Source: Picocystis sp. L7 (Eukaryota; Chlorophyta; Picocystophyceae; Picocystales; Picocystaceae). From it: a stretch of DNA of 64,000 bases. Shown one piece after another: positions 26,235-38,958 of the stretch. The first letter of the stretch is position 1, and the number at the start of each line of letters is the position of its first letter. The stretch lies in assembly GCA_020975725.1 (NCBI GenBank), contig QXJR01000011.1, forward strand, positions 124,001-188,000, read 5' to 3'. Both the position numbers and the translations under genes were made by a program. The notes below the pieces were generated by a model that was not told where the DNA came from, ran no database searches, and worked only from the letters and a program-made list of their open reading frames with translations.

Positions 26235-27008
26235 ATGGCGCTTCGCGAAGCGTCGAAACGCGCCTGTCGAGCTTTCATGGCGTCGAAACACATCGAGACG
26301 TGGTCCAGCAACATCGTCCCTGCGTTCCAGGTGCGCCAGGCCGCGTCCACGGCGTACACGGTGGGCGATTCGACGAACATCAAGTGGCACGAAGGCAGCG
26401 TGAGTCGCGAGGCGCGCGAGAAGATCCTGGACCAACGTGGCTGCGTGCTTTGGTTCACTGGACTGAGCGGATCGGGAAAGAGCACGGTCGCATACACCCT
26501 CGAGCACGCCTTGGTGGAACGCGGGAAGCTGGCCTACGTGTTGGACGGCGACAACATCCGCCACGGTTTGAATCAGAACTTGGGATTCACCGCTTCCGAT
26601 CGGGAAGAGAACATCCGACGCATCGGCGAGGTGTCCAAGCTGTTCGCCGAATCCGGCATGATCACGCTGGTGAGCTTCATCTCGCCGTATCGTGCCGATC
26701 GGGAACGCGTGCGCCAGCGTTTGGCCGAGGGAGATTTCATCGAGGTGTACATGAAGATCCCGTTGGAAGTGTGCGAATCCAGGGATCCCAAAGGACTGTA
26801 CAAAGCTGCACGTGCCGGGAAGATCAAAGGATTCACCGGCATCGACGATCCTTACGAGGAACCGACGCAACCCGAGCTGGCAATGGAAGTGTCCAAAGCG
26901 GACGGCGTGATGAAGCCACCGGAGAAGATGGCGGGCGAGATCCTCGCCTACCTCGAGAGCAAGGGTTACCTGCAAGGGCGACCGTCCTCTGAAGCAGCCG
27001 CCATGTAA
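26235..27008 (+). CDS. APK: adenylylsulfate (APS) kinase, copy 1
   Basis: A 257-residue protein. The N-terminal 40 residues are basic and Ser/Ala-rich (MALREASKRACRAFMASK), a plausible organelle-targeting peptide. The kinase core starts at STAYTVGDSTNIKWHEG. It has the P-loop TGLSGSGKST, the DGDNIRHGLNQNLGF substrate loop, SFISPYRADRERVR, PLEVCESRDPKGLYKAARAG and KGFTGIDDPYEEP. It phosphorylates APS to PAPS for sulfation reactions. From 26344 to 26971 the DNA matches copy 2 at 38.2-38.8 kb almost exactly, but the N-terminus and the last residues (QGRPSSEAAAM) differ. The stop is 2 bp from the stop of the convergent helicase gene. Confidence 0.94.
   Translation: MALREASKRACRAFMASKHIETWSSNIVPAFQVRQAASTAYTVGDSTNIKWHEGSVSREAREKILDQRGCVLWFTGLSGSGKSTVAYTLEHALVERGKLAYVLDGDNIRHGLNQNLGFTASDREENIRRIGEVSKLFAESGMITLVSFISPYRADRERVRQRLAEGDFIEVYMKIPLEVCESRDPKGLYKAARAGKIKGFTGIDDPYEEPTQPELAMEVSKADGVMKPPEKMAGEILAYLESKGYLQGRPSSEAAAM
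26344..26971 (+). repeat. 628-bp near-identical block shared with 38219-38846 (inverted)
   Basis: The DNA from CGTCCACGGCG to GGGTTACCT is the same as the reverse complement of 38219-38846, with no length difference and only two substitutions that I noticed, both synonymous (in the GFTASDR codons and in the ELAMEV codons). Identity stops abruptly at both ends, inside the coding sequence. Confidence 0.9.
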
Positions 27009-27010
27009 AT

Positions 27011-37837: not shown

Positions 37838-38196
37838 TCCGTCCTCGTCGCTTTCCTTCGTCGAAAGGCGCTTCTGAGTCCGATCTCCTTCGGATTGAAC
37901 CCAAGCCCATGCCGGGACGGGATCCCGGTCGAAAGTCTCGAACGAAACGGCATTTTCATCGGGACTTCGGGACCGGGGCGTTTGATCGGGGGATCGGAGG
38001 AAACAGACCGGCCCCCCGTGGGGGTGACCCGGTCCGCGTCGGTGGGGTTCGGGCAGGGGGTCTGTCCTCGGAAGGACCGATCACGTGACTTCGGGGTGAG
38101 GATGGGGCATCCATGGGGACGTGTCGAGACAAGTCCAGGTGGGAGTTGGAACCGAATGTGGAAACAACCGCCGTGGCGGAGCAGGTGGATCCGAAC
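37838..38196. promoter_or_regulatory. OTC promoter region
   Basis: Holds repeated TTCGAA/GTCGAAAG/TCTCGAACGAAAC-type words near 37860-37950, G-rich runs near 37970-38050 and a TCACGTGAC box at about 38083-38091. It also contains the 3' end of the APS kinase copy 2 transcript. Confidence 0.4.
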
Positions 38197-38958
38197 TCAT
38201 GGCTTTCCTGTACAGCTGAGGTAACCCTTGCTCTCGAGGTAGGCGAGGATCTCGCCCGCCATCTTCTCCGGTGGCTTCATCACGCCGTCCGCTTTGGACA
38301 CTTCCATCGCCAGCTCGGGTTGCGTCGGTTCCTCGTAAGGATCGTCGATGCCGGTGAATCCTTTGATCTTCCCGGCACGTGCAGCTTTGTACAGTCCTTT
38401 GGGATCCCTGGATTCGCACACTTCCAACGGGATCTTCATGTACACCTCGATGAAATCTCCCTCGGCCAAACGCTGGCGCACGCGTTCCCGATCGGCACGA
38501 TACGGCGAGATGAAGCTCACCAGCGTGATCATGCCGGATTCGGCGAACAGCTTGGACACCTCGCCGATGCGTCGGATGTTCTCTTCCCGATCGGAAGCAG
38601 TGAATCCCAAGTTCTGATTCAAACCGTGGCGGATGTTGTCGCCGTCCAACACGTAGGCCAGCTTCCCGCGTTCCACCAAGGCGTGCTCGAGGGTGTATGC
38701 GACCGTGCTCTTTCCCGATCCGCTCAGTCCAGTGAACCAAAGCACGCAGCCACGTTGGTCCAGGATCTTCTCGCGCGCCTCGCGACTCACGCTGCCTTCG
38801 TGCCACTTGATGTTCGTCGAATCGCCCACCGTGTACGCCGTGGACGTCGCGCGCGACCCTCCTGAAAGCAACAGAGAAGGCACGTCCACGTCATCCGCCT
38901 CTCGAGACGCCCATGCGCACCATCGAGACGTCAAACGGCTCCCTTGCCGCCTGAACAT
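38197..38958 (-). CDS. APK: adenylylsulfate (APS) kinase, copy 2
   Basis: A 253-residue protein starting MFRRQGSRLTSRWCAWASRE. The kinase core is identical in amino acids to that of copy 1 (P-loop TGLSGSGKST, DGDNIRHGLN, SFISPYRADR, KGFTGIDDPYEEP). The N-terminal 35 residues and the C-terminal end (YLSCTGKP in place of QGRPSSEAAAM) are unrelated to those of copy 1, so the two proteins probably go to different compartments. The first Met of the open frame lies at 39096, which would add a Cys/Ser/Arg-rich stretch; 38958 gives a short basic presequence. The role is PAPS synthesis. The gene is on the opposite strand to copy 1, about 11 kb away. Confidence 0.92.
   Translation of the reverse strand: MFRRQGSRLTSRWCAWASREADDVDVPSLLLSGGSRATSTAYTVGDSTNIKWHEGSVSREAREKILDQRGCVLWFTGLSGSGKSTVAYTLEHALVERGKLAYVLDGDNIRHGLNQNLGFTASDREENIRRIGEVSKLFAESGMITLVSFISPYRADRERVRQRLAEGDFIEVYMKIPLEVCESRDPKGLYKAARAGKIKGFTGIDDPYEEPTQPELAMEVSKADGVMKPPEKMAGEILAYLESKGYLSCTGKP
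38219..38846 (-). repeat. 628-bp near-identical block shared with 26344-26971 (inverted)
   Basis: Second arm of the inverted duplication in the APS kinase genes. The boundaries are sharp on both sides and lie inside the coding sequence. See the block at 26344-26971 for the differences seen. Confidence 0.9.

Follow-up and report, generated by a model that had tools for sequence, protein, structure and literature searches.

Picocystis sp. L7 carries two inverted APS kinase genes, A and B, whose catalytic cores are almost identical in sequence and whose ends differ. We read these genes as an old inverted pair in which the core has been repeatedly homogenised by ectopic gene conversion while the ends were spared, and we assign this reading a probability of about 0.85. 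The stretch that was analysed, 64,000 nucleotides at its full length, is called the window below.

Two APS kinase genes with a shared core

The features of the pair are as follows.

26235..27008, + strand: APS kinase gene, copy A, 257 aa, an intronless ORF (from PF01583, the match to 3uie and the translation)
26235..26343, + strand: A-type N-terminal presequence, outside the putatively homogenised block; 23/38 residues identical with P. salinarum A
26344..26971, + strand: near-identical core block, left arm, holding the whole kinase domain; 2 mismatches/628 against the right arm
38197..38958, − strand: APS kinase gene, copy B, 253 aa, an intronless ORF (from PF01583 and the translation)
38847..38958, − strand: B-type N-terminal presequence, outside the putatively homogenised block; identical with Pico_ML B at 39/39 residues and with P. 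salinarum B at 25
38219..38846, − strand: near-identical core block, right arm; 2 mismatches/628 against the left arm

Both copies encode full APS kinases. The PF01583 profile scores 239 bits at both places in the genome profile search and 236 bits on the ORF at 25851-27005 (copy A). Profile positions 1-151/152 are covered, and both copies contain the P-loop GLSGSGKS. The copy A protein begins with MALREASKRACRAF..RQAAS and ends with ..GYLQGRPSSEAAAM, and the copy B protein begins with MFRRQGSRLTSRWCAWAS.. and ends with ..GYLSCTGKP. Copy A matches the solved APS kinase 3uie (adenylyl-sulfate kinase 1, chloroplastic), which we take to be Arabidopsis APK1, over the whole core with an E value of 1.2e-81. 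The redox-bridge cysteines of 3uie, taken as Cys86 and Cys119 with the numbering inferred from their spacing, appear replaced by Gly and Tyr in the Picocystis copies. One report describes the redox bridge of the Arabidopsis-type enzyme as Cys86-Cys119 and algal enzymes as having Cys119 only (PMC9426629). Since both bridge cysteines are replaced, the redox switch of Arabidopsis APK1 is probably absent from both window copies.

At the DNA level, no clear third copy was found in the genome of 20,525,659 bases in 30 contigs. The third PF01583 hit of the genome profile search, on contig C25, is weak; we rejected it as a third APS kinase, as it scores only 26 bits and looks KTI12-like by eye. In a phage collection, two records matched part of the core, at 65.1% and 69.7% identity. 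A scan of IMG/VR yielded 11 loci, which have 42-57% protein identity and include no close relative.

The two arms, 26344-26971(+) and 38219-38846(−), align in inverted orientation over 628 bases with no gap and 2 mismatches. These lie at zero-based offsets 247 and 538, leaving identical runs of 247, 290 and 89 bases, and both are synonymous (ACC/ACT, Thr; GCA/GCG, Ala). Two differences in approximately 144 synonymous sites correspond to a dS of about 0.014 between the window arms; the relatives were compared as protein. The initial annotation had described a 628-bp inverted core with about two synonymous differences, and its exact coordinates hold. The base-by-base alignment that it proposed finds 2/628 differences, not the many differences that it had named as evidence against its reading. 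It had also called the coding ends beside the core unrelated. Block identity drops abruptly at both ends, and outside the arms (1,500 bp, upstream against upstream and downstream against downstream) there are only 10-19-base matches, the best with an E value of 0.023. The comparison of flanking introns that it suggested has no object, because both gene ORFs are read without an intron.

The arm pair is the only repeat of at least 60 nt that find_repeats (seed 20) detected in the 64-kb window. When 258 kb of the contig (729,631 bases) were compared with themselves, 25 matches had an E value of 1e-10 or less; 2/25 have at least 99% identity, namely the APS kinase arms and one 450-bp direct repeat. 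The latter (L035; C9:112191-112640 and C9:116747-117196) is 99.8% identical with abrupt ends, and a long reading frame was not seen within it. Related stretches with 70-74% identity occur at C9:10171 and C9:117750, and it is perhaps a dispersed element.

Paralog-specific N-terminal ends

Relatives were taken from a protein search in which the best 120 of 7998 scored matches were listed and proteins were clustered at 90% identity, so the list may conceal further members, a Pico_ML A copy for example. The best six of the 120 listed proteins (P0003-P0008) are from Picocystis by name or closeness; P0003 and P0006 belong to P. salinarum, and P0005 is the Pico_ML protein g3303. The rows with an A-type N-terminus (MALREA..) are window A, P0003 (P. 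salinarum) and P0004 (lgn_A). Those with a B-type N-terminus (MFRR..) are window B, P0005, P0006, P0007 and, less clearly, P0008 (lgn_B). The same rows fall into three lineages: the window with Pico_ML (1 core difference), P. salinarum with P0007 (4 core differences) and lgn (P0004 with P0008). Searches with the N-termini only returned one match each, P0005 and P0003; they are uninformative on absence because they missed rows known from the full search.

The A-type N-termini share 16-23 identical residues between lineages, with 0/500 shuffles as good in each of the 3 pairs. The B-type N-termini, leaving aside P0008, share 22-39 identical residues between rows, and the copy-B N-terminus of the window is identical in Pico_ML P0005 at 39/39 positions. 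Between window A and window B there are 8 identical residues, and 160/500 shuffles are as good. The comparison of sal_A with sal_B is slightly above chance (z 2.5, 9/500 shuffles as good), so the A and B ends may share a distant origin. The match of P0008 to the B rows is weak (z 2.4-3.7), and against P0004 it reaches z 4.1; the N-termini of P0004 (lgn_A) and P0008 (lgn_B) both end in RQSTT, and their junction residues look A-like. In the N-terminal tree, the rows group by paralog (support 88/89) and P0008 sits on a long branch; a constraint that unites window A with window B and ML_B is rejected (p-AU 3.6e-5). Read from these un-homogenised N-termini, the duplication predates the split of the lineages, with the case weakest for P0008.

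Lineage-specific cores

The cores follow the lineages. Within the pairs, A and B differ at 0 of 208 core residues in the window, 0 in P. salinarum and 3 in lgn; among the three lineages, the cores differ at 10-22 of 208. A core tree with the A and B rows kept apart is worse by 105.7 lnL (p-AU 3e-42, IQ-TREE constraint). Grouping the lgn lineage (P0004 and P0008) by its cores is circular, so the test was run again without it, on the window and P. salinarum pairs only; the same constraint is then 54.6 lnL worse (p-AU 9e-52, p-KH and p-SH 0.0003). Paralogs inside a lineage are thus closer to each other than orthologs across lineages, which is the pattern that defines concerted evolution.

The constraint tests kept identical rows and replaced earlier core-clade tests, three of four of which could not use identical rows. 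The fourth, which forced all B rows into one group, returned p 0.28 and has no bearing on paralog separation, because identical rows were left free. The outgroups of the first tree (P0010, P0012, P0029 and P0031) were dropped because of long branches, P0031 having fallen among the Picocystis rows, and later trees used P0009 and P0011. Strong branch support is sparse in these small trees, with 0/9 starred branches in the first tree and 1/5 and 0/4 in two later ones. As a contrast that falls short of a full control, the two ATP-sulfurylase genes, which lie on separate contigs, share 74% identity in DNA and 72% in protein. Core position 119 is Glu (GAA) in both window copies and Asp in all nine other alignment rows, including Pico_ML B; this single shared residue is a possible trace of recent transfer between the window copies.

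Probable gene conversion and alternative explanations

At the protein level, the alignments show concerted evolution of the cores, with gene conversion as the likely process. Ectopic gene conversion is the ordinary cause of concerted evolution between arms 11.2 kb apart. The proposed course begins with an old duplication that left two plant-type APS kinase genes of Picocystis inverted and tail to tail. Their N-terminal presequences split early and have since run as two separate orthologous lines, as the alignment shows (least clearly for P0008), and the kinase-domain stretch would have been overwritten repeatedly by non-reciprocal copying between the arms. Conversion tracts would end at the presequence junction and just past the GYL domain end; the gene ends would be kept because copying runs no further than the homology. 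Homogenisation is probably tolerated or favoured by selection, since both genes would need the same enzyme with different targeting. Rare resolution as a crossover may invert 11.2 kb and exchange the C-terminal tails.

Four other explanations were weighed. The first is a single ancestral gene with alternative first exons, in which the A and B proteins of the relatives are transcripts of one locus and two loci exist only here. The P. salinarum proteins, identical from STAY to the last residue, fit it; because the C-terminal tail is also shared, that pair could be one gene or a transcript-assembly mix. However, the window presequences are continuous with their cores in intronless genes at two loci, and lgn_A and lgn_B differ at three core residues and in their tails, so we give this explanation little credence. 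A very recent duplication in this strain, in which the new copy acquired a new presequence and tail, would account for the 99.7% identity and the unrelated flanks. The initial annotation had offered it beside core-restricted gene conversion, and only the latter stands: recent duplication is rejected because both end types recur elsewhere while the cores go by lineage. P. salinarum, and probably one further lineage, also has both N-terminus types on lineage-specific cores, and core trees separating A from B are rejected, leaving it scarcely credible.

Still harder to sustain is a staggered-break inversion, in which one gene was split with 628-bp overhangs and its core duplicated at both segment ends. 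It would place inverted repeats with differing flanks exactly at the segment ends, as seen here, but the second presequence would be as young as the repeat, and P. salinarum has both end types; a working second presequence would also have to arise by luck. An assembly artefact placing one locus twice would explain near-identical blocks, but it is very unlikely given the unique differing flanks, the 2 base differences between the copies, the full match of the copy-B N-terminus in P0005 and the P. salinarum relative (P0003) of the copy-A N-terminus.

The spacer and a possible inversion

The segment between the arms has the following features.

26972..38218, no strand: spacer of 11,247 bp, predicted to be invertible by crossover between the arms (from the repeat coordinates and family matches)
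27011-29686, − strand: SF1-type helicase ORF
30506-31798, − strand: CBS-domain ORF
32924-33871, − strand: Bax1-I
36767-38080, − strand: OTC

The remaining stretches of the spacer have no family match. At 27006-27013, only 2 bp separate the stop codon of copy A from that of the convergent helicase ORF; a longer copy A 3′ UTR would therefore overlap the helicase coding sequence. Elsewhere in the window, at 7036-7148 (+), Rfam finds a 113-bp tRNA gene (model of 71 positions), probably with an intron, which is absent from the ARAGORN output (bacterial code).

Because both tails face the spacer, a crossover within the cores would put the B tail behind the A presequence and the A tail behind the B presequence, and the spacer would be inverted. 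The tails are QGRPSSEAAAM in window A and SCTGKP in window B, and SRDTRPRA in lgn_A and HAQEMNEDAAV in lgn_B. The lgn lineage thus has an A gene with a B-like tail and a B gene with an A-like tail, as judged from 6-11 residues. The summed tail score between the window and lgn is 13 for the exchanged pairing and −19 for the straight one. In tail shuffles (5000, with gap costs of our choice, 15 pairs), 0.96% are as good for window A against lgn_B, 17% for window B against lgn_A and 0.4% for sal against ena. In P. salinarum, both proteins end in SCPKNR, as expected if a conversion tract had extended through the tail or if transcripts had been collapsed.

The lgn tails hint at a crossover inverting 11.2 kb between the copies, and the initial suggestion that the 11-kb segment could flip fits this apparent exchange. 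Core crossovers may thus have inverted the helicase-to-OTC segment during Picocystis evolution, leaving the genes unbroken and swapping C-terminal tails and 3′ neighbours each time, with conversion keeping this recurrently flipping hinge near-identical. Short-read contigs can misjoin ends across an identical core. For this reason, and because the tail strings are short, we hold such flipping only as a tentative reading.

Possible targeting and sulfate activation

The presequences of both copies are basic and about 40 residues long, with a net charge of +4 in the first 20 residues in both window copies. Two compartments for the A and B kinases are plausible; different addresses are suggested because the two presequence kinds stay distinct over the lineages. 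The ATP sulfurylase on contig C22 begins with MLRTMLRGFHRAAGR.., and the N-terminus of that on contig C10 differs. On contig C10 (G000:C10:227215-229738), about 1.3 kb separates an ATP-sulfurylase match from a PAPS/APS-reductase match of the same strand, a linked sulfate-assimilation pair in the nuclear genome. From the ATP sulfurylase N-termini and this linkage, two sites of sulfate activation are conceivable.

Under gene conversion, the pair would be a clean natural case in which the catalytic part of two isozymes stays the same and their presumed address labels are free to diverge; the host is a green alga with a small genome that lives in saline lakes. Annotators should also take warning, as near-identical paralogs here need not be young. 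The locus would be a good site for testing inversion, with breakpoints within genes left intact and the tail exchange as a readable footprint.

Comparison with known systems

Among the matches listed in a literature search by titles and abstract beginnings, nothing concerned this Picocystis APS kinase pair. In Chloromonas, gene conversion is offered only as an alternative for Rubisco small-subunit genes (PMC7853309). Palindromic paralogs with coding-only concerted evolution are already known, and the Picocystis pair is a new, clear member of this class; it would be more than another such case if the tail exchange is real.

Drosophila Amy-p/Amy-d is a palindromic amylase pair with homogenised coding sequence and diverging flanks (PMC3924832). 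Both systems have linked inverted protein-coding paralogs with high identity within species relative to ortholog divergence. Unlike the amylase pair, the Picocystis pair also spares coded presequences and tails, its spacer holds several other genes and its host is a picoplanktonic green alga. Human Y palindromes such as P6 have arms kept near-identical by gene conversion, with rare crossover inversions (PMC3723533). The likeness lies in near-identical inverted repeats, with conversion probable in Picocystis. The human palindromes are large repeats in the male-specific region, whereas the Picocystis repeat is 628 bp within genes, where crossover is only hinted at by the tails.
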